Source: Ruminococcus sp.
GTDB taxonomy: Bacteria > Bacillota > Clostridia > Oscillospirales > Acutalibacteraceae
Assembly: GCA_017457955.1 (NCBI GenBank)
Contig: JAFTGL010000001.1
Location: 30,703-94,702 of the forward strand
Direction: 5' to 3'
Length of the DNA: 64,000 bases
Each line of letters begins with the position of its first letter. Position 1 is the first letter of the stretch. The notes beneath the pieces were generated by a model. The model searched no databases, was not told where the DNA came from, and was given only the letters and a program-made list of their open reading frames with translations. Made by a program: the position numbers and the translations under genes. Of the stretch, positions 32,819 to 42,028 are shown piece by piece.

Positions 32819-33118
32819 TTGCGTCCTATCCTTTCTATATGAATGAATACCCCTCTATCTATGGCGCGATAATCGAAAAAATTGCATAAAACTATGCAAC
32901 TGTATAAATATGTATTTTATTTCGGGAATACAAGAAGTGAAACCGATCACAAGTGATTCTATGCTTTGTAACAGAAAACGCGAGGAAATACTCCCTCGCG
33001 TTGATCCGTTTTCTTATTTTATATCGGCGTCAGGACTTTTTGATTGATGGCAAATCCCGACGGGGAGACCATGTCAGCCGTTTTGGATGAGCGGTGTCGA
33101 TGACGCTGGCTTCTGCTT
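32819..33118. other. Non-coding gap before the partner-switch operon end
   Basis: This 300-base gap holds a stem AACGCGAGG/CCCTCGCGTT at 32978-33003. On the minus strand it is followed by TTTTC, so it probably terminates the operon ending at 33119. A short palindrome, TTGCATAAAACTATGCAA, lies near 32881-32898. Between 33017 and 33118 I see no gene, although a stop-free minus-strand frame of about 33 codons runs there. Confidence 0.5.
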
Positions 33119-33544
33119 TCAAGTTGATAATTGAAAACACTTTTTGATTGTAAGAATATTTCTGCCGTCCTTATATTCGTATGAGACGTTATCCATCAGC
33201 TTCTTGGTCATGAAAATGCCCAAGCCTCCGATCGGGCGATCCTGAGCATTAAGCGTAACATCAGGGTCGGGTTTCTTGAGCGGATCATACGGGATCCCGC
33301 TGTCGATCAAGGTGATCTCCGCGAATTCAGAGCTGATACTCACGCGGATCACCGCTTTGCCTGTGCTGTCAGGATAAGCATACTGCGCGATGTTGACGAA
33401 CAGCTCTTCGAGCGCGACGTCGATCTGCATCTGCGCCTTTATAGGGCAGTCGTGCTCTTCGAGCAGATCATCAACAAAGGCGAGGACGTCATGCAGTTGA
33501 TCGACGTCGGCACAAACCGTCAGTTCATGGGTTTTAGGCTCCAT
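33119..33544 (-). CDS. RsbW/SpoIIAB-like anti-sigma serine kinase
   Basis: A 141-residue GHKL ATPase of the HATPase_c_2 type. The N box is EELFVNIAQYAY, the G1 box is IDSGIPYDPL and the G2 box is IGGLGIFMTKK. Such kinases phosphorylate a STAS antagonist and, when free, bind a sigma factor or another target. The gene is the last of the STAS/NRPS/phosphatase operon and overlaps the phosphatase gene by 11 bases, which shows tight coupling. No sigma factor gene is adjacent, so its target is open. Confidence 0.88.
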   Translation of the reverse strand: MEPKTHELTVCADVDQLHDVLAFVDDLLEEHDCPIKAQMQIDVALEELFVNIAQYAYPDSTGKAVIRVSISSEFAEITLIDSGIPYDPLKKPDPDVTLNAQDRPIGGLGIFMTKKLMDNVSYEYKDGRNILTIKKCFQLST

Positions 33545-35015
33545 CCTGTTTGCCTCCTCTGTATTCCAGACAAAGCATCGTCAGATCATCGAACTGCTCC
33601 GCTTCCCTGACAAAGCCGTCTACGGCAGATCGCACCTGCTTTAGGATATCCTGAGGCGCCGCTGAAGTGTCTTTGTTGAGCGCTTCCAGCATGCGTTCGG
33701 TGCCGAACAGCTCCTGACTTGCGTCGGTCGCCTCGGGAACGCCGTCGGTGTACAGGAACAGCTTGGAGCCCGGTTCCATCTGCAGCTCATATTCCTTGTA
33801 TCTGAGTCCGTCCATGCCGCCGATGACGAAGCCGTGTTTATCCTTGATCAGCTCAAACTGACCGTTCGCGCTGCGCATCACGGGATATTCGTGACCTGCG
33901 TTAGCGGCGGTGAGCTTTCCTGAGGACAATTCAAGGATACCCAGCCATACCGTGACGAACATTTCCTCACGGTTATTGGAGCAGATCGCGGCGTTTGCGT
34001 CCGTCAGTATCTGCGCGGGGGACTTTCCGAGCATGGCGTTATTGGCGAGGATGATTTTTGCGGCCATCATAAACAGCGCGGCGGGAATGCCCTTGCCGGA
34101 TACATCCGCCATTACCATACACAGATGATCGTCGTCAACGAGGAAGAAGTCGTAGAAGTCGCCGCCGACCTCCTTCGCGGGGTCCATAGAAGCATAGATA
34201 TCGAACTCCGGACGGTCGGGAAAAGCGGGATAGATATTCGGCAGCATATCCGCCTGTATCCGCGTGGCAACACGCAGATCAGACTCGGTAGCCTCCACTT
34301 TTGCGCGGGTCTCTAAAAGGGTATGGGTGCTGACGTTGGTAGTCAGGTACACCAGAGATACGGAAACCGCTAAGCTGAGGGCAAGATAGTTGCTGTCTGC
34401 TCCCAAAAGGATGATTTCCAGTACATAGACGGCGGGCGCCAATACACCGAATACGATCATGTTGTAAGATACGCGAGTTGCCGCAGAGTTTTTTCGCCGA
34501 CCTCTGACAGCATATTCCACAGCGCTGATCAGCGCTGTCAGAAGGTATAACCCCATCAGCGGAGTAAACAGCGCGTCGAAAAGAATTTCCTCGTGCAGCC
34601 CCCCTGTTTCGTCCACTCTTACAACCCAATGGGTCAAAGGCGTGGTAACGCAAAGCAGGAAGAAGATCCCTAACGGAACGATATAGAACAGCACGTTCAT
34701 CCATATAGCTTTCGGCAGACGGTCAAACCGGTTCAAAATGTAGCGGTTTAATAAAGCGGTAAATGAAACAAACGAAATCATATAGCCGCAGACGCCAAGA
34801 TAAGTAAGCGCCGATAGCTGAGGACGATTTTCACAGAAGGTCCAGAGGATCTCAAAGCTGCACATAATGACTCCAAACAGCAGCATGAGCGAGAGACGGT
34901 CTTTGAGCTTTTGCTTATACAGCACAAGATTGTTAAAGAGAAGGATGCCGAGCAAGATCATCGCTACAAAGAGCAATTCCCGATATAATCCGTTGATGAT
35001 CGCTTGATCTGTCAT
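33534..35015 (-). CDS. Membrane SpoIIE/RsbU-type PP2C phosphatase
   Basis: A 493-residue protein. Residues about 10-225 form six to seven hydrophobic helices, like a 7TM sensor. The rest is a PP2C-like phosphatase with DPAKEVGGDFYDFF, MADVSGKGIPAALFM and FDDLTMLCLEY, whose aspartates bind the two metals. It should dephosphorylate the STAS protein at the end of a signal path that begins in its membrane domain. AGGAAGGAAA precedes ATG 35015. It overlaps the kinase gene downstream, and a STAS fragment lies just upstream. Confidence 0.9.
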   Translation of the reverse strand: MTDQAIINGLYRELLFVAMILLGILLFNNLVLYKQKLKDRLSLMLLFGVIMCSFEILWTFCENRPQLSALTYLGVCGYMISFVSFTALLNRYILNRFDRLPKAIWMNVLFYIVPLGIFFLLCVTTPLTHWVVRVDETGGLHEEILFDALFTPLMGLYLLTALISAVEYAVRGRRKNSAATRVSYNMIVFGVLAPAVYVLEIILLGADSNYLALSLAVSVSLVYLTTNVSTHTLLETRAKVEATESDLRVATRIQADMLPNIYPAFPDRPEFDIYASMDPAKEVGGDFYDFFLVDDDHLCMVMADVSGKGIPAALFMMAAKIILANNAMLGKSPAQILTDANAAICSNNREEMFVTVWLGILELSSGKLTAANAGHEYPVMRSANGQFELIKDKHGFVIGGMDGLRYKEYELQMEPGSKLFLYTDGVPEATDASQELFGTERMLEALNKDTSAAPQDILKQVRSAVDGFVREAEQFDDLTMLCLEYRGGKQDGA

Positions 35016-35044
35016 ATTATTTCCTTCCTGCAGCTGCTGCCGGA

Positions 35045-35131
35045 TTACAGCAGCTGCGTGTTATTCGATGGTTGAATATCCGAGAAGCCGGTGACCGCAA
35101 AGATCTGCTTGACCGTATGGAGCCAAATCAT
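35045..35131 (-). pseudogene. Remnant of a second STAS antagonist gene
   Basis: On the minus strand between the NRPS-like gene and the phosphatase gene, a 28-codon frame reads TVKQIFAVTGFSDI in its middle. It aligns with TVMEIFEVTGFSDI at the end of the intact STAS protein at 38161-38469. Only this C-terminal helix and strand remain; the rest of the domain, including the phosphorylated serine, is gone. It is best read as the tail of a duplicated STAS gene that was truncated. It could still be translated, because ATG 35131 opens the frame, but no ribosome-binding site is seen. Confidence 0.7.
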
Positions 35132-35168
35132 TTCTTTGATGTTTATCGATGATCGGTTCCGTCACTCA

Positions 35169-38159
35169 TTATTTTTTTCTTCTGAATATGCTGACAAATT
35201 CAGTAAAGAAATTCTTTTTATCAGCGATCTTCTTTTTGATCTCTGCGATCGTGACGTCAGCCTGCGAGTTATGGGTCACCATAGCCTGCGCGAGTCTGAC
35301 ATAGATGCTCTTGAATCTCTCGATGCTTGCTTCGTCATACAGGCTCGCGGCAAAGTCGATCATCACCTGCAGTCCGTCCGCGCCGTCGAGGATCTCGATG
35401 TCGAGGATCGTCTGGGACGCCGCCTGATTCTGGCGCACTTCGACCGGCTCGATGTCAAAGCCCTCGAGACCGCCCATGTCGCGGATATCCTGCTGATAGA
35501 GCAGATATGCTGCCTCGCCGCTGCCGACCTGGTTGACCGAGTCGACGTAGGGGTAACAGCTGTGCTCGATGCCCTTCTGTACCTGCTCATGCACGTCGGC
35601 AAAGACGTTGCGCAGGGTGTCGCTGTCCTTGAAACGGATACCCACCGGCAGATCGCGGAACATCAGGCCCACGGAGCTGAGCATCTGCATATCCTCTCTG
35701 CCGTTATAGATCCACGACAGCTTGATATCGGGCGCGTCGTTGTAGATCGAGATCGCAAGTGCCGCCACGGTGATGAAGAACTCGTTGCGGCTGATCTTAT
35801 AGGCGCGTTCTACCGCCTTCATCTGCGCTTGCTCGATGTCCAGCTCGCCGAACAGCTCGCCCATCTCGTTCTCGCGGGATTCATGGTCGGTCTTGGGATA
35901 GCATGACCAGTCGATATTGTCGTATCTATCCTCAAAGTACTTCTTGCTTTCTTCATAGAACGCGGTATTCACAGCATCCTCACGCCGCTTGAGCATGAGA
36001 TAGTAGTAGTCCTTGTCCATATCCATGCCCATGTACGCCTTGCCGACGTCGCCGAGGAACACCTTCAGCGAGGTGCCGTCGAACAGCGAATGATGGACGT
36101 CGAAGAAGATATAGCCGGCTTTTTCGGTCTGGAAAACACGGCAGCGGAACAGCTTGCCGCCGACGATCTTGAAGGGATACACCAGCGTATCCTTCACGAA
36201 TCTCATTTCGAATTCGGACAGCTTCTCGACATGGATATCCGTCAGGTTCTCGGGAGTATATCTCTGGATCAGCTCGCCGTCCTCGTTCCACGCGAAGGTG
36301 GTCAAGAGGGCAGGGTGATTCATGATCGCTTTTTTCAGCGCTGCCGCCATCTGTTCCATATCAAAGAGATCGGTGCTGACCTTCATCATCGAGAAAAGGT
36401 TGTACATCGTGGAGTTCGGGGTGTACAGCTGATAGTCGACCATATACAGCTGTTCGGTCGTCAGCGGGTGCTCCTCCTTCAGCGACGCGTCGTTCTTCTC
36501 ATCAGGGCTTTCACCGTCGTTGTTCTCGAGTATCTCCTGATACAGCGCGGCGATCTTCGCGGGCGTTCTGCCGCGAAAGACTTCGGATGTATTCAGTCCG
36601 GGCAGATCGGCTTCGGTGATCAGATCGATAGAGCCGAGCGAATCGCCGCCCATCTCATAGAAGTCGTCGTTGATACCGACCTGCGAGAGCTTTAAGACCT
36701 TTTCCATCGCGTGACAGATCTTTTCTTCGATCTCGTTCGTGGGCGCGGCATAGTCGCTCTTGAAATCGTCTATATTAGGCGCGGGCAGGCCTTTTCGGTC
36801 GAGCTTGCCGGTCGCCTTGAGGGGTACCTTATCGATCTTGATGTAATAGGCAGGGATCATATAGTAGGGCAGACGCTTCAAAAGCTCCGCGCGGAGCGAC
36901 TCGGCGTCGACCTGTATATCAGCGGTGTAATAGGCGCAAAGGTAGCTTTTGCCTGCGTCCTCAAAGCCGCGTACAGCCGCCCATTCGATACCGAGCGCCT
37001 GCTTGACGGCGGCTTCGATCTCGGCGGGTTCGATGCGGTTGCCGTTGATCTTGATCATATCGCCCGATCTGCCGAGCAGTACATAGTTGCCGTTCTCGTC
37101 CTTCTTGGCAAGGTCGCCGGTGTGATAGACGCCGTTTACGAACGCCTTTGCACTTTGTTCAGGCAGGTTGATGTATCCGCGGACATACGGATTCTCAAAG
37201 CACAGCTCGCCTGTCTCGCCGTCAGCGACCTCTCTGCCGTCCTCGCCGATGAGAGTGATCTTGGTGTCGATCTCAGGCTTGCCGATCGGGCAGGTCTCAT
37301 AGGAACGGTCGATCTTGAAAATGCCTACCGCAAAGCCGCTCTCGCTGGCGGCGTATACGTTGATGAGATCTACATTCTTATTATATACGTTGTTTGCGGG
37401 CTCGCTTCCGACGATCAGTATTCTGAGGAACGGTCCCGTCTGATTTCCCAGCTTACGCACATAGGAAGGCGTCAGGAAGGTGACGGTGATGCGCTTACTG
37501 ATGAAGAATTTCGCGAGAGCGCCGGGATTTTTGATGACGGCGTAGGATACGACAAAGGTCTTTCCGCCGAAGATGCTCAGCGCTTTCAAAATGACGATGA
37601 CAGAGGCGACGAAGTTCATCGGCGCCAGCAGCGCGAGCCTGTCGGAGCTTTTGAAGGGGGTCTCGCCGTCGATCTTGATGGATTCGATCGCGCGGCTGAG
37701 GTTGCCGTATTCATGCAGAACGCCCTTGGGGTTGCCTGTGGTGCCGGAGGTGTAGATCGCATAGGCGGCGTCGTGATCGCCGTGCGCTTCATAGCCTTTC
37801 AGCGGCTCGGTGTGCATGATCTCGTCCCAGTTGTCGGCACTAAGCTCCAGCTTGCAGCCGCAGTCAGAGCGGATGAAGTTGATGCGCTCCGGCGCGTAGG
37901 TGTCCTCTACCAGCGCCCACGCCGCACCTGCCTTCCAAACGCCGATCATCGCGATGATCGGGAGGATGCCTCTCGGAAGGTCGATGAGGACAAAGTTCTC
38001 TTTACCGATATTGTTCTGCTTCAGATACGCATAGACGCGTCCGCTCATCTCGTCAAGCTGAGCATAGGTGACGCCTTTGGCGTGCGCGTCGTCAAACAGG
38101 ATCGCTCCGTTGGGGTTTTCAGCGGTATACTGTTCCAGCAGTTCTAAAATGTTGATCAT
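35169..38159 (-). CDS. NRPS-like protein: adenylation, carrier, condensation domains
   Basis: A 996-residue single-module protein. The adenylation domain (about 1-470) has TSGTTGNPKG at 137-146, NVYAASESG near 267, YHTGDL near 345, GRSGDMIKINGNRIEP near 363 and the late lysine in TGKLDRKGLP at 452. A carrier domain follows, with GGDSLGS and the pantetheine serine near 507. The C-terminal condensation-like domain (about 565-985) has the active-site motif HHSLFDG at 689-695. No thioesterase or reductase is present. At the position aligned with PheA Asp235 there is Val184 (FVAS), so the substrate may lack an alpha-amino group. GAAGGGG precedes the start; the STAS gene ends one base upstream. Confidence 0.88.
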   Translation of the reverse strand: MINILELLEQYTAENPNGAILFDDAHAKGVTYAQLDEMSGRVYAYLKQNNIGKENFVLIDLPRGILPIIAMIGVWKAGAAWALVEDTYAPERINFIRSDCGCKLELSADNWDEIMHTEPLKGYEAHGDHDAAYAIYTSGTTGNPKGVLHEYGNLSRAIESIKIDGETPFKSSDRLALLAPMNFVASVIVILKALSIFGGKTFVVSYAVIKNPGALAKFFISKRITVTFLTPSYVRKLGNQTGPFLRILIVGSEPANNVYNKNVDLINVYAASESGFAVGIFKIDRSYETCPIGKPEIDTKITLIGEDGREVADGETGELCFENPYVRGYINLPEQSAKAFVNGVYHTGDLAKKDENGNYVLLGRSGDMIKINGNRIEPAEIEAAVKQALGIEWAAVRGFEDAGKSYLCAYYTADIQVDAESLRAELLKRLPYYMIPAYYIKIDKVPLKATGKLDRKGLPAPNIDDFKSDYAAPTNEIEEKICHAMEKVLKLSQVGINDDFYEMGGDSLGSIDLITEADLPGLNTSEVFRGRTPAKIAALYQEILENNDGESPDEKNDASLKEEHPLTTEQLYMVDYQLYTPNSTMYNLFSMMKVSTDLFDMEQMAAALKKAIMNHPALLTTFAWNEDGELIQRYTPENLTDIHVEKLSEFEMRFVKDTLVYPFKIVGGKLFRCRVFQTEKAGYIFFDVHHSLFDGTSLKVFLGDVGKAYMGMDMDKDYYYLMLKRREDAVNTAFYEESKKYFEDRYDNIDWSCYPKTDHESRENEMGELFGELDIEQAQMKAVERAYKISRNEFFITVAALAISIYNDAPDIKLSWIYNGREDMQMLSSVGLMFRDLPVGIRFKDSDTLRNVFADVHEQVQKGIEHSCYPYVDSVNQVGSGEAAYLLYQQDIRDMGGLEGFDIEPVEVRQNQAASQTILDIEILDGADGLQVMIDFAASLYDEASIERFKSIYVRLAQAMVTHNSQADVTIAEIKKKIADKKNFFTEFVSIFRRKK

Positions 38160-38160
38160 A

Positions 38161-38469
38161 TCAGTCTGCCCCTTCTATATCAAGGATATCCGAAAATCCT
38201 GTGACCTCAAATATTTCCATGACTGTTTCGTTCACATTGCGGACCGTCATTTTGCCCTGCTTGTTCATGATCTTCTGGGCAGAGAGCAGTACCCTGAGTC
38301 CCGCGGAAGAAATGTAGACCAGATCCTTCATATCCAGCGTAAGTGCTGTGACGCCGTTCAGGGAGCTTTTCAGTTCCTGATCGAGCTCGGGTGCCGTCGA
38401 TGTGTCCAGACGACCCTCAAGAGTAAAGATAGCTGCGGCGTTTTCGATCGTTTTTTTGATGTTGAGCAT
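38161..38469 (-). CDS. STAS-domain anti-sigma-factor antagonist
   Basis: A 102-residue SpoIIAA/RsbV-like protein, with a beta start LNIKKTIENAAAIFTLEGRLDT, the switch segment VYISSAGLRVL (phosphorylatable Ser54 or Ser55), and the tail FEVTGFSDIL. In a partner switch it is phosphorylated by the RsbW-like kinase and dephosphorylated by the SpoIIE-like phosphatase, both in this operon. It is the first gene after a sigma-A promoter and a leader with two hairpins. AAGGAG lies 12-13 bases before the start, a long spacing. Confidence 0.92.
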   Translation of the reverse strand: MLNIKKTIENAAAIFTLEGRLDTSTAPELDQELKSSLNGVTALTLDMKDLVYISSAGLRVLLSAQKIMNKQGKMTVRNVNETVMEIFEVTGFSDILDIEGAD

Positions 38470-38522
38470 AAGTATTGGATTCTCCTTTTCTTAATATTAT
38501 TGTTTTGACAGTATGTGCTATA

Positions 38523-38589
38523 GTGCTTCGGTGTTCGAAAGCACGACAGTTCTGAGCAGATGATTGATGATCAGCGGTCCGCGCTGATC
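38523..38589 (-). promoter_or_regulatory. Leader of the STAS/NRPS operon with two hairpins
   Basis: In the roughly 125-base leader, GATCAGCG pairs with CGCTGATC (38569-38589), and GTGCTT pairs with AAGCAC (38523-38544). Neither is followed by a T-run, so they are not simple terminators; they may protect the message or control translation. Confidence 0.4.
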
Positions 38590-38601
38590 TCTTTCAGATA
38601 T

Positions 38602-38630
38602 ATTATAACGGCATTGAAGGCATAAATCAA
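38602..38630 (-). promoter_or_regulatory. Sigma-A promoter of the STAS/NRPS operon
   Basis: On the minus strand TTGATT (38625-38630), a 17-base spacer and TATAAT (38602-38607). No stress-sigma-type promoter is evident here, so basal transcription is probably by the main sigma factor. Confidence 0.75.
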
Positions 38631-38713: not shown

Positions 38714-39475
38714 TTATTGATTGAATTCAAAGAAATTCATTTGCGCGAAGCCCGTTGGCAGCGGTATCGTACACATGTAGATGAAAGCCAAAATCAGACA
38801 CGCGACCGCGATCGACAAGACTGCGATACGGTTCGGCATGTTTTTGAAGGTGCCGACGATACCGAGCAGGAAGAGCGTCAGCGAGTAAATGACGGTTACA
38901 AGCTGGTATGAATCGCCTTTTGTGTTATCCCGCTTTCCTTCTTCAAGCAGTTCCTGTGACTGAGCGGACGTGCCTTGTGCCGACTCAAAGTATTTTCCCG
39001 TTATTCCGGGCATATTGAACGGATTGTCTTCGCCGTTTTCCTCCATCCATTTGATGCCTTCGGCAAGAATATCGCTGATACTATTTTTCTTGAAAGTCTC
39101 GATCTTATCGTTGATGAGATCGATCTTTGTCTGATCACTGTCAGCCTTTGCCAAATCCAGTTCATAGGTATAATCCTTCAAGGTGTTCCATGCCATATAA
39201 TCGGCAAGGAACGCTTGCGTTCCGAGGTTGTATTCTGCGGTACTCTGTGACGCCGTGTTATTGCTCTCTGTAAAATGGATGGATTGGAGTCCGCCGTGCA
39301 GATGTGCGATCCATGAAGCCCACGCCGAGAGCAGCGTCGTGATGCCGAGCAGCACCGCAACGACCGTTTCAAGCCTTTTGGCGGTCAGGATGGTTTTTTT
39401 GCCTTTGACCGCGTTGTCGGGAGGAGTATCACCGCGTTTAGCGGATTTGCCTTTTGTTGATTTGGATTGATTCAT
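38714..39475 (-). CDS. Three-helix membrane protein, unknown function
   Basis: A 253-residue protein: a Lys-rich cytoplasmic start (KSTKGKSAKRG), one hydrophobic helix (VAVLLGITTLLSAWASWIAHL, near 40-60), an acidic, helical soluble part of about 120 residues, and two closing helices (LVTVIYSLTLFLLGIVG and IAVLSIAVACLILAFIYM). The layout vaguely recalls DUF4337-type proteins, but I do not assign it. ATG 39475 begins the recognisable protein, with only TAGGGAT upstream; the frame extends upstream without support. It follows the glycerophosphodiesterase gene by 11 bases, so the two are an operon. Confidence 0.7.
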   Translation of the reverse strand: MNQSKSTKGKSAKRGDTPPDNAVKGKKTILTAKRLETVVAVLLGITTLLSAWASWIAHLHGGLQSIHFTESNNTASQSTAEYNLGTQAFLADYMAWNTLKDYTYELDLAKADSDQTKIDLINDKIETFKKNSISDILAEGIKWMEENGEDNPFNMPGITGKYFESAQGTSAQSQELLEEGKRDNTKGDSYQLVTVIYSLTLFLLGIVGTFKNMPNRIAVLSIAVACLILAFIYMCTIPLPTGFAQMNFFEFNQ

Positions 39476-39486
39476 ATTGATGATCC

Positions 39487-41238
39487 CTACTGTACCAAAG
39501 AGTACGCCTTTTGGAGAATGATTTCGAGCAGGGAGCGATTTGAAAGCTGTTCCTTTATCTCGCCTGACAATTTCACGGAATCGGTTATGATCGCGTCGGC
39601 GTCGCTTGTCATGAAATACTCGATATCGTCTTCTTCGTTGACCGTCCATACCATGATCTTCTTGCCCTTGTCATGGATCGCGGCGATGGTCTCGTCGGTC
39701 GAGATCTCTTCCTCGAGAGCCAGATAATCGAAGGGGGTGTTCTCGATCTGACCAAAGGAGATAAAAGCGAGATAGCCGGTCTGCATTTCGGGGTATTCCT
39801 GCTCGATATACTCCAGTATATCATATTTCAGCGAGATTAGCACTACCTGATTTTCCATGCCTTTTTCCTTGATGATCCTGACGGCGTCATCCGCCATCTG
39901 ATCGTCGGCAGTCGCGCCTTTCAGCTCCACAAAGAGGATCACCTTGTCGCGGGACGCGTCGAGCATTTCTTCTAAGGTCGGTACAGGCTCTCCGTCCACA
40001 CTCAGCTCCTTGACCTCGCTGAGCGTCATTTCTTCCGGCGTTTTTTCAACGCCCGCGACACGCGCAAAGTCCGCGTCATGGTTGACGACATAGTATCCGT
40101 CAGAGGTGCGCTGGATGTCGATCTCACAGCCCATGGCGCCGAGCTCATAGGCGGCCTCGATACCCTTTACGGTGTTTTCGGGCGCTTCGATACCGCCCGC
40201 GCGGTGAGCGATGATCTCAGCCGTGATCTGCGTATGGAAGATCTCATCAAAATGATTGACTCCGACGACGGAGAACGCGACACAGAGGATCAGCACCAGC
40301 ACGACCGCGGTTATCACGAACGGATGGCGCTCCTTATCCTGCTTCCGATACTGCCATTCTCCCTCGCTGCTGTACTTTTTGTAAAGCATCGTCAGCTTGA
40401 GTACGAAGAACGATACAGACATCAGTGCCGCGAACAAAAGGACGATAAGCGGGATAAGGGTGAATAAGATATCACAGAATCTCAAAGCCGTTTCTCCCAT
40501 CGGGATCAGCTGTACGATCAGCAGGGGAAGGGCGGCGCATGCCGTCAGCAGGACTGCCGCAAGCGTCGCGATCACAAGAAAGCAGATCAACTCAAAAAGG
40601 AAGTTTTTCAGGTTGCCCTTGACCAGCTTGCGGGAATTGACGCTTGCTTGTTTCATCGTCATGCCGTCCGTCAGCGCTCCGTGCAGGATGAAGCAATAGA
40701 TGAACGCGACCACCGTCAATAAGATAATAACAACGGTATAGCCGATCGAAAACAACGGGGTGTTGTTGATGACGGACATGATAAAGCGCGGCATGTAGAA
40801 TGACGAGGTCAGCGATACGGAAAAGCCGAGTCCGAGGATCGGCGCGAGAACGACCGCATACAGAACAACCGCCAGTCCGCGGAGATTGAGATACTTTTTC
40901 AGCGCCGCGAAGCCGCCTTTGACGCTCTGCCACACGGACGTTTTTTCCCCGTCAAGGAGCTTTGAGCTGTAGATGAGAAGAGCGTTCAGCTCGACCGCGA
41001 CGTATGAGATCACCATCAGCAGGATCAGCGCGATCATCACATAGCCCTGCCAGTGGGTGAACACAAAGCTTAGATCGCCGCTGGTGACAGCCGTTTTGCC
41101 TGTCAATCCTAACAGCAGACCGCACAGAGCGGATATGCCCCATGTCAAAAGCGACAGGAGAAGAAACGACACGAGCTGAAACGTCAGCAGTTTCGGGATC
41201 GCCTGATAAAACGGACGGATTCGGTTTTTCAGTTTCAT
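39487..41238 (-). CDS. Membrane glycerophosphodiester phosphodiesterase
   Basis: A 583-residue protein. The first 320 residues form about eight hydrophobic helices (membrane domain often fused to GDPD), and residues about 335-570 form a GDPD TIM barrel. Catalytic marks are IAHRAGGIEAPENTVKGIEAA, then CEIDIQRTSDGYYVVNHDADFARV (metal ligands and His) and LFVELKGA. Such enzymes cleave glycerophosphodiesters, or lipoteichoic-acid-type chains, at the outer membrane face. GAGGTAC precedes ATG 41238. A MITE-like repeat lies just upstream. Confidence 0.9.
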   Translation of the reverse strand: MKLKNRIRPFYQAIPKLLTFQLVSFLLLSLLTWGISALCGLLLGLTGKTAVTSGDLSFVFTHWQGYVMIALILLMVISYVAVELNALLIYSSKLLDGEKTSVWQSVKGGFAALKKYLNLRGLAVVLYAVVLAPILGLGFSVSLTSSFYMPRFIMSVINNTPLFSIGYTVVIILLTVVAFIYCFILHGALTDGMTMKQASVNSRKLVKGNLKNFLFELICFLVIATLAAVLLTACAALPLLIVQLIPMGETALRFCDILFTLIPLIVLLFAALMSVSFFVLKLTMLYKKYSSEGEWQYRKQDKERHPFVITAVVLVLILCVAFSVVGVNHFDEIFHTQITAEIIAHRAGGIEAPENTVKGIEAAYELGAMGCEIDIQRTSDGYYVVNHDADFARVAGVEKTPEEMTLSEVKELSVDGEPVPTLEEMLDASRDKVILFVELKGATADDQMADDAVRIIKEKGMENQVVLISLKYDILEYIEQEYPEMQTGYLAFISFGQIENTPFDYLALEEEISTDETIAAIHDKGKKIMVWTVNEEDDIEYFMTSDADAIITDSVKLSGEIKEQLSNRSLLEIILQKAYSLVQ

Positions 41239-41260
41239 AACAGTACCTCTTTGATGTTTT

Positions 41261-41420
41261 ATACTAATTTCTAATAAAACCCTTTAACATCTATTGCGTA
41301 AAATTCTGCATAGCTTTGTTGGACTCCTTGACATACGTCAGTATGCCTGCGTTGTCCGCCTCGCTCTGCGAAATTTTCCGTTAATATCTTATTAAAGCTT
41401 TTTATTAGAAATTAGTATTA
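41261..41420. repeat. MITE-like repeat, copy 2
   Basis: About 160 bp with terminal inverted repeats ATACTAATTTCTAATAAAA and TTTTATTAGAAATTAGTAT, better matched than in copy 1 (22736-22890). The interior shares GCATAGCTTTGTTGGA and TTGACATACGTCAGTATG with copy 1. It lies between the starts of a minus-strand operon and the end of the DUF308 gene, and it has no ORF. Confidence 0.78.
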
Positions 41421-41518
41421 CGCGAAGCGGGGAAGAACCGCGTGAATAAAGTCATGTATCCGCCGTGTATAACGGCATACGCGGCGGATACGGATAATCG
41501 GGGTAAAATATTGATTGA

Positions 41519-42028
41519 TCAGTCGTTGGCGGCAACGCCGGTGAACATCAGGGTAAAGCCCGTTTCGATAAAAAAGATACCGATCAGAACGCCGAGCGAT
41601 ACTGCCATGAGCGTAGGCTGGAAGAACGAGTAACATCCGATCAGAACAGCGAGTATGCCGAAAATCAGCTGCAGTATCCATAACTTGGAGCCGGTCGCTT
41701 TTGTCACCGATACGGAATTGATGATCGAAACGATACCCATCAGTACAAACCATACGGCGGTCAATATCAGCATGATGCCTTCGGCGAAGAGCAGGGATTG
41801 GGGGAACGCCATCATGACGCCGCCCAGCAGAACGCTCAGGATACTGAACACAAAGTTGACGCCGAATCGTTTTTCAACAATGGCTTTGATAATGCCGACG
41901 ATACCGAAAGCAGCCATCAGTATCACGACAAAATAACCGGTGTTCATAAAGGTAAGCAGCGGCGTGAAGATACAGGAAAAACCTCCTGCAACTAACAAGA
42001 TCCCTAAAATAATGAATAATACGGTCAT
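41519..42028 (-). CDS. DUF308/HdeD-like membrane protein
   Basis: A 169-residue protein with six hydrophobic helices in three hairpins (FIILGILLVAGGFSCIF first, then VFSILSVLLGGVMMAFP and LQLIFGILAVLIGCYSFFQP). It resembles the protein at 14127-14660 and fits the HdeD family. GAGGTG lies upstream of ATG 42028. Its promoter (minus strand, 42149-42177) carries a 21-bp palindrome directly upstream, which it shares with a promoter near 47.3 kb, so the gene is probably under a specific activator. No function is known. Confidence 0.82.
   Translation of the reverse strand: MTVLFIILGILLVAGGFSCIFTPLLTFMNTGYFVVILMAAFGIVGIIKAIVEKRFGVNFVFSILSVLLGGVMMAFPQSLLFAEGIMLILTAVWFVLMGIVSIINSVSVTKATGSKLWILQLIFGILAVLIGCYSFFQPTLMAVSLGVLIGIFFIETGFTLMFTGVAAND

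Follow-up and report, generated by a model that had tools for sequence, protein, structure and literature searches.

A STAS, SpoIIE and RsbW-like gene set beside an NRPS-like gene in Ruminococcus: a candidate partner switch without a sigma factor gene

Results

Gene content of the locus

We analysed a stretch of 64,000 nucleotides, hereafter the window, from a Ruminococcus sp. (assembly GCA_017457955.1, contig JAFTGL010000001.1, positions 30,703 to 94,702), in which genes for three proteins of the partner-switch type lie together with a gene for a nonribosomal peptide synthetase-like (NRPS-like) protein. The source is a metagenome-assembled genome (MAG) of 1.83 Mb in 15 contigs, estimated to be about 74 percent complete. 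An earlier note, made from the sequence alone, had described four minus-strand genes in the order STAS, NRPS-like, SpoIIE and RsbW-like between 38469 and 33119; gene calls and Pfam searches bore this out, and the gene calls also agree that the unit contains no sigma factor gene (Table 1). Three further points of that description hold in part. Two junctions are indeed overlaps or very short gaps (1 nt between the STAS and NRPS-like genes, and an overlap of 11 nt between the SpoIIE and RsbW-like genes), but 153 nt separate the NRPS-like gene from the SpoIIE gene. The single promoter proposed for the unit matches the consensus at 38630-38602, but the region holds 12 promoter-like sites versus 5.7 expected. 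The supposed RsbW-type kinase is a HATPase_c_2 protein by PF13581, but it scores 36.8 bits against a cut-off of 145 bits with the NCBIfam RsbW equivalog, and thus we call it RsbW-like.

Table 1. Features at the locus and in its flank, with positions in the window
Feature	Position	Strand	Basis
STAS protein, anti-sigma-factor-antagonist type, YISSAGLR motif	38161..38469	-	Pfam STAS, STAS_2 and TIGR00377 over cut-off
NRPS-like adenylation-carrier-condensation protein, 996 aa	35169..38159	-	AMP-binding, PP-binding and Condensation over Pfam cut-off
Decayed gap, 153 nt	35016..35168	-	blastn: STAS 3' remnant, weak esterase 5' match
Membrane SpoIIE-type PP2C phosphatase, 493 aa	33534..35015	-	PF07228, 172 bits
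RsbW-like HATPase_c_2 protein, kinase candidate, 141 aa, EELFVNIAQY and GGLGIF boxes	33119..33544	-	PF13581, 88.8 bits
Sigma-70-like promoter match, TTGATT-17-TATAAT, 133 nt 5' of STAS	38602..38630	-	consensus match only
Terminator-like hairpin 3' of the RsbW-like gene	32977..33002	-	consensus match only; 5 found vs 5.1 expected
Flanking block: unknown 311 aa ORF, GDPD (39487-41238), 169 aa ORF	38714..42028	-	

All four genes are under purifying selection. Compared with five close relatives, dN/dS came to 0.04-0.10 in the NRPS-like gene and 0.13-0.26 in the STAS gene; against locus L040 it was 0.13 in the phosphatase domain and 0.18 in the RsbW-like gene (L and G numbers are our handles for loci and sampled genomes). 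These values do not support a pseudogene reading. A defence-system reading was also rejected, as the four proteins and the esterase described below gave no PADLOC match at 1e-5. In the 153-nt gap, the STAS remnant (about 35116-35059) matches the STAS 3' ends of L061 (91 percent over 43 nt, E 1.5e-9), L040 (94 percent over 33 nt) and L166 (79 percent over 57 nt), and the weak match to an esterase 5' end (about 35146-35112) is to L089 (83 percent over 36 nt, E 0.005).

Switch proteins

The STAS protein with its serine motif, the HATPase_c_2 protein with N and G2 boxes and the SpoIIE-type PP2C protein with metal-binding motifs together make up the predicted gene set of a partner switch. The window STAS scores 60.3 bits with Pfam STAS (cut-off 22.6), and its relatives in PDB include SpoIIAA and an anti-sigma-B antagonist. 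SSAGLR is present, as a motif, in 30 of the 33 STAS proteins of the sampled loci, and the serine in YISSAGLR is presumably the phosphorylation site, by analogy with SpoIIAA and RsbV. A fusion of a STAS domain with an APH-type phosphotransferase/kinase-like domain was also seen by Pfam (L040:2876-4009), and L042:15626-16753 falls in the same protein cluster as this fusion.

The only PDB match of the RsbW-like protein is RsbW (E 8e-5). The N-box pattern is found in all 16 RsbW-like proteins and GGxGxF in 14 of 16, consistent with a predicted kinase role, and the window protein scores 18.9 against 135 bits with the SpoIIAB model. With no sigma gene in the unit and with both the RsbW and SpoIIAB models below cut-off, the unit was not classed as a sigma-B or sigma-F switch. 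The RsbW-like protein might nevertheless be the anti-sigma partner of a sigma factor whose gene lies elsewhere, so that the switch would control transcription of the cluster. Proteins matching SigBFG (E <= 0.001) occur in 100 of 100 genomes of the genus (87 over cut-off), the STAS protein belongs to the ant_ant_sig superfamily, and the window genome has, besides a sigF-like gene, a second SigBFG protein. However, this sigF-like gene lies on another contig, where SpoIIAA- and SpoIIAB-like genes of its own adjoin it in a spoIIA-type operon. Considering also the lack of a sigma gene in the four-gene unit, the distance of the RsbW-like protein from both cut-offs, and the HATPase tails on exporters (see below), which have no obvious role under a distant-sigma scheme, we regard this explanation as unlikely.

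Among the SpoIIE phosphatases, GGD-YD is present in 19/20, YTDG in 20/20 and FDD-TML in 15/20. The window SpoIIE has an N-terminal sensor region with five hydrophobic segments by a simple hydropathy scan. Its N-terminal 235 aa had one match among the loci searched, the SpoIIE of isolate P7 (74 percent), in which the gene order is SpoIIE-RsbW-STAS-NRPS, and its phosphatase domain is nearest to that of L040 (87 percent). Because the sensor resembles that of P7 and the phosphatase domain that of L040, the gene looks chimeric.

The NRPS-like enzyme

The NRPS-like protein has adenylation, carrier and condensation domains with predicted catalytic motifs, all intact in the window (TSGTTGNPKG, GGDSL and HHSLFDG). 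Among 70 aligned NRPS-like rows, the carrier Ser is kept in 70, each condensation His in 69, and DG in 70. Residues 6-957 align to residues 207-1184 of LgrA, the linear gramicidin synthetase with solved structures, which shares the adenylation-carrier-condensation arrangement. LgrA differs in having further modules and in keeping Asp at the site where the window protein has Val184.

This site corresponds to Asp235, which contacts the alpha-amino group of the substrate (PMC11355689), and in keto-acid adenylation domains the residue there is typically aliphatic (PMC10949194). The site, at which Asp marks modules that activate alpha-amino acids, is Val in 67 of the 70 rows, Ile in two and a gap in one. 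Ten mapped specificity positions read VAIFFGIFAK in 47/70 rows and VAIFIGVFAK in the window, using our own mapping of LgrA to GrsA positions. In comparison, of 13 adenylation domains taken from five other NRPS loci of the genus, 10 have Asp235; the three lacking it are all first adenylation domains, one of them with Val. Since the adenylation domain lacks Asp235, an alpha-amino acid substrate is improbable; the substrate is probably of another kind, with keto, hydroxy, aryl and fatty acids as candidates.

Orthologues and their neighbours

In a sample of 100 genomes of the genus, 47 contain an orthologue of the NRPS-like gene. Full-length copies number 41 (69-100 percent identical, window included), five more genomes have fragments (65-77 percent), and one copy is at 49 percent. 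The other matches listed in these genomes are at 38 percent or below, and thus the group is sharply bounded. In a class-wide search, a relative at E <= 1e-130 was found in 8 of 391 genomes besides that of the window (33-73 percent identical). Record titles, available for 37 loci, name Ruminococcus in 16 and Ruminococcaceae bacterium P7 in one, the rest being broader (Clostridia, Bacilli, Erysipelotrichaceae and others), and many point to goat, deer, sheep or reindeer.

A STAS gene lies directly upstream on the same strand in 39 of the 44 loci with an upstream flank, and a carboxylesterase gene directly downstream in 36 of the 43 with a downstream flank. Within 8 kb, 14 of the 24 loci with long flanks on both sides have SpoIIE, 14 have RsbW-like, 13 have the two together and seven have a MATE transporter with a HATPase domain (MATE-HATPase). 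This tally omits L082-L084 (no orthologue, or an own second NRPS) and the orthologue fragments in G063 and G076. In a second tally, of named loci, STAS was found in 28/35 and the esterase in 27/34; it overlaps the genus sample and thus the two are not independent. In a clade of nine loci with titles mainly from Bacilli or Erysipelotrichaceae, eight have STAS directly upstream and eight have the esterase downstream (the ninth contig is cut), and two have SpoIIE with RsbW-like. Judged by recurrence among homologues, the check that the earlier note had set, the link is not sporadic and largely passes, although SpoIIE and RsbW-like genes are jointly close in little more than half of the loci.

The common core is STAS, NRPS-like and carboxylesterase genes, with SpoIIE and RsbW-like genes, and sometimes MATE-HATPase, on either side. 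The four-gene order of the window is a derived one; a reading of it as a complete system is ruled out by the adjacent esterase of most other loci, which is absent from the window locus.

A carboxylesterase separated from the synthetase

The esterase belongs to PF00135 (329 bits), has GESAGG and the histidine motif in 35/35 proteins, and carries a hydrophobic C-terminal segment, predicted to be a membrane segment, in 32 of 35. Of the 100 genomes, 43 carry the esterase, all of them among the 47 with the NRPS-like gene (Fisher 5e-24, relatedness ignored). The genomes with the NRPS-like gene alone are G072, G039, G078 and G076, and in the last two the gene is cut by a contig end.

Permanent loss of the esterase from the window genome is ruled out, as it is present on contig C15, where an intact STAS gene is followed by a short NRPS-like C-terminal tail (by eye) and then by the esterase; farther along lie a SpoIIE-HATPase fusion and a 4'-phosphopantetheinyl transferase. 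Likewise, in G035, G062, G052 and G087 an intact STAS gene precedes the esterase and the NRPS-like gene is absent there, a remnant of it being seen by eye in G062 and G052 and not in G035 and G087. In P7, the esterase directly follows MATE-HATPase with no STAS or NRPS-like gene between, and these two lie together on another contig. G092, with both genes at contig ends, was excluded from this count.

An assembly or binning artefact, which keeps some probability in a 74 percent complete MAG, is not favoured as the cause of the split, because the split recurs in five sampled genomes and in P7, because the esterase never occurs without the NRPS-like gene among the 100 genomes, and because in the esterase tree the C15 copy pairs with that of G049, the nearest genome by marker protein as well. 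G+C content is similar across the split (53.0 and 52.3 percent).

Movement of the STAS-NRPS pair

By marker protein, the window genome is closest to G049 (95 percent), followed among others by G035 (90), G062 (85), G054 (77) and G052 (75). The window NRPS-like protein, in contrast, shows 92-95 percent identity to its orthologues in G035, G062, G054 and G052 (G052 92) and 74 percent to that of G049, and the STAS protein 82-88 percent (G052 82) and 60 percent, respectively. Because marker and pair identities disagree, as for G052 and G049, transfer of the STAS-NRPS pair between species is indicated. In the esterase tree, the five split genomes stand in five separate places, and the window's esterase pairs with that of G049.

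The flanking block of the window (311 aa ORF, GDPD, 169 aa ORF) is also beside the STAS-NRPS pair in G035 and G062, with fragments in G052. The window GDPD is 91-92 percent identical to those of G035 and G062 over the part present (about residues 284-583) versus 50 percent to that of the nearest relative, G049, and the block apparently moves together with the pair. A similar block is present in G037, where no NRPS-like gene was seen in the stretch examined. The simplest reading is that the STAS-NRPS pair with its GDPD flank moved between species, and that on several occasions a genome lost its resident NRPS-like gene but kept its own STAS and esterase genes.

An origin of the NRPS-like clade outside the genus is not established. 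An approximately unbiased (AU) test on 27 rows gave p 5e-105 against a single clade, but the outsiders include rows of unproven kinship (L090, L091, L116, L092 and Bacilli-titled ones), on which the NRPS tree favouring such an origin also leans. With four rows of proven other families, a single clade for the genus was not rejected (p 0.117), and for this reason we claim transfer between species only. The trees omit identical rows, NRPS-like rows below 700 aa and esterase rows below 240 aa, and the AU tests used 27 and 19 of the 70 rows.

The same genes at other NRPS clusters

The second NRPS of the window genome has two condensation, two adenylation and two carrier domains and a reductase, with STAS directly upstream and MATE-HATPase and SpoIIE-HATPase downstream. 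Forty other-NRPS loci were hand-picked from the genus match list, at one or two per genome, and do not comprise all matches. Of 41 such loci tallied, 27 are well flanked, and among these STAS is present in 25, SpoIIE in 22, RsbW-like in 23 and MATE in 26; STAS stands directly before the NRPS gene in 11 of the 41. Thus, the other NRPSs of the genus mostly carry the same switch kit as the window unit. They resemble the ruminopeptin-type peptide-aldehyde NRPSs described from gut Ruminococcus (PMC12327764) in ending in a reductase (3/3 tested). Unlike these (PMC12327764), the window protein is adenylation-carrier-condensation only, with no reductase or second module.

HATPase_c_2 was matched in eight of nine MATE proteins tested, seven over the Pfam cut-off; in L042, for example, the domain is C-terminal. 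The earlier note had considered the kinase or the STAS protein as possible binders of the NRPS-like protein itself. HATPase-tailed MATE exporters beside other NRPSs offer a further target, an exporter, that it did not consider.

Switch and NRPS genes might also be only recombination neighbours that share mobile genomic sites with no functional link. The order and distance of SpoIIE and RsbW-like genes vary among loci, the window SpoIIE looks chimeric, and an NRPS-like relative, L111, lies near a relaxase gene. We consider this very unlikely, as purifying selection acts on all four genes and STAS adjacency recurs across several NRPS types, though only four STAS genes over cut-off were found in the window genome (two directly before NRPS genes, one in the spoIIA-type operon and one before the esterase).

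L111 also encodes, near its NRPS-like gene, an adenylation protein that ends in a HATPase_c_2-like domain (22.9 bits, below the cut-off of 27.4). This is one case; no second such protein was found in 398 genomes, of which two matched at 1e-70 in the adenylation part only. The stretch L111:5408-11523 holds this protein and a MATE-HATPase, and the relaxase gene nearby suggests a mobile element.

Discussion

On balance, we favour a non-sigma partner switch that is dedicated to a nonribosomal small-molecule pathway. This explanation draws on the gene set and its conservation, the intact motifs, purifying selection and the strict co-occurrence of esterase and NRPS-like genes in the sample. The component proteins are of known kinds; no description of their combination was found in searches of the open-access literature.

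RsbU/RsbV/RsbW and SpoIIE/SpoIIAA/SpoIIAB of Bacillus comprise the same three kinds of proteins with intact motifs, and in the RsbU/V/W switch the phosphatase dephosphorylates the STAS serine and the kinase rephosphorylates it. Unlike the Bacillus switches, the window unit has no sigma gene and is tied to an NRPS-like protein, an esterase and partly HATPase-tailed MATE exporters. From this analogy we infer a phosphorylation cycle. On a signal, the membrane SpoIIE phosphatase would remove the phosphate from the STAS serine, and the RsbW-like kinase would restore it. Unphosphorylated STAS would engage HATPase domains, that of the kinase and that of the MATE exporter tail where present, and possibly also the NRPS-like protein, and product synthesis or export would thereby be gated post-translationally. 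As its substrate the NRPS-like enzyme probably takes a carboxylic acid that has no alpha-amino group, which it would then join to an amine or alcohol, and the esterase, with its predicted C-terminal membrane segment, may release or remodel the product.

Several observations weigh against this proposal. Among the 44 orthologous loci, four showed no STAS gene directly upstream and one has it downstream (49 percent identity); of the 24 loci with long flanks, 11 lack SpoIIE, RsbW-like or both within 8 kb. Of the five NRPS-like relatives at 91-95 percent, G054 has SpoIIE and RsbW-like genes, whereas none were seen in the stretch examined in G035, G062, G052 and L089 (the G035 contig is short). Near the eight relatives in other families of the class, STAS, esterase and MATE-like genes were found once each and SpoIIE or RsbW-like genes in none (some stretches are short); the association is thus limited to part of the family. 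A MATE-HATPase of this cluster's type was not found in the window genome (74 percent complete), and thus an exporter target alone does not explain the window locus. Finally, STAS is intact at 5/5 sampled esterase loci without the NRPS-like gene, which implies that STAS is not merely an NRPS subunit.

This last point bears on a narrower explanation, already proposed in the earlier note, in which STAS would be the direct regulatory partner of the NRPS-like enzyme and an on/off switch of the assembly line. The pair stands in the same order and strand in most loci and recurs at other NRPSs, moves together between species, and stays together in P7 apart from MATE and esterase, and the L111 adenylation-HATPase protein would fit as well. 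However, STAS persists where the enzyme is gone, loci without STAS exist, and no interface is known. We hold this to be somewhat unlikely, although it may overlap with the dedicated switch favoured above.

Partner switches and NRPS products each offer a precedent: SiaC of Pseudomonas belongs to a partner switch, and indigoidine is an NRPS-made product. In SiaABCD, the small partner SiaC binds the enzyme SiaD directly and thereby activates it (PMC8457831), a parallel to the direct control of an enzyme proposed for the window. That enzyme is a diguanylate cyclase, unlike the NRPS-like protein of the window (PMC8457831), and the window SpoIIE matches the SiaA phosphatase model weakly (50 against 700 bits, below cut-off). 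In Vogesella, TciK/TciR includes a gene with an RsbW-like domain that regulates indigoidine production; there the domain is fused to a response-regulator receiver, and the available text of the report describes no SpoIIE or STAS partner (PMC12826045).

A broader scheme, possible but doubtful, is that partner switches act after translation to gate nonribosomal pathways in general across this Ruminococcus group, with STAS shuttling among kinase, MATE-HATPase and synthetases, and that STAS with the NRPS-like gene is an exchangeable cartridge which repeatedly displaced the resident synthetase, the esterase and usually STAS staying. If the dedicated switch is correct, assembly-line metabolism and an exporter would be directly controlled by a SpoIIE-STAS-RsbW switch, a direct output for partner switches without a sigma factor. 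It would also open a way into the silent NRPS clusters of Clostridia from gut and rumen, as the SpoIIE sensor, and not only transcription, may decide production or export. The repeated separation of synthetase and esterase, both retained in the genome, amounts to a natural gene-swap experiment.

Other genes near the cluster

Eight loci have, close to the cluster, one membrane protein each of the BaxI_1 family (PF12811; L042:11331-12179 and relatives, eight proteins in all). Another protein family, of which the 248-aa L042 copy (L042:1837-2583) has no Pfam match, has 17 copies in 16 of the loci examined. In the divergent relatives L183 and L184, a cation-efflux family protein is encoded directly upstream of the NRPS-like gene (L183:4773-5669 and L184:3538-4425).

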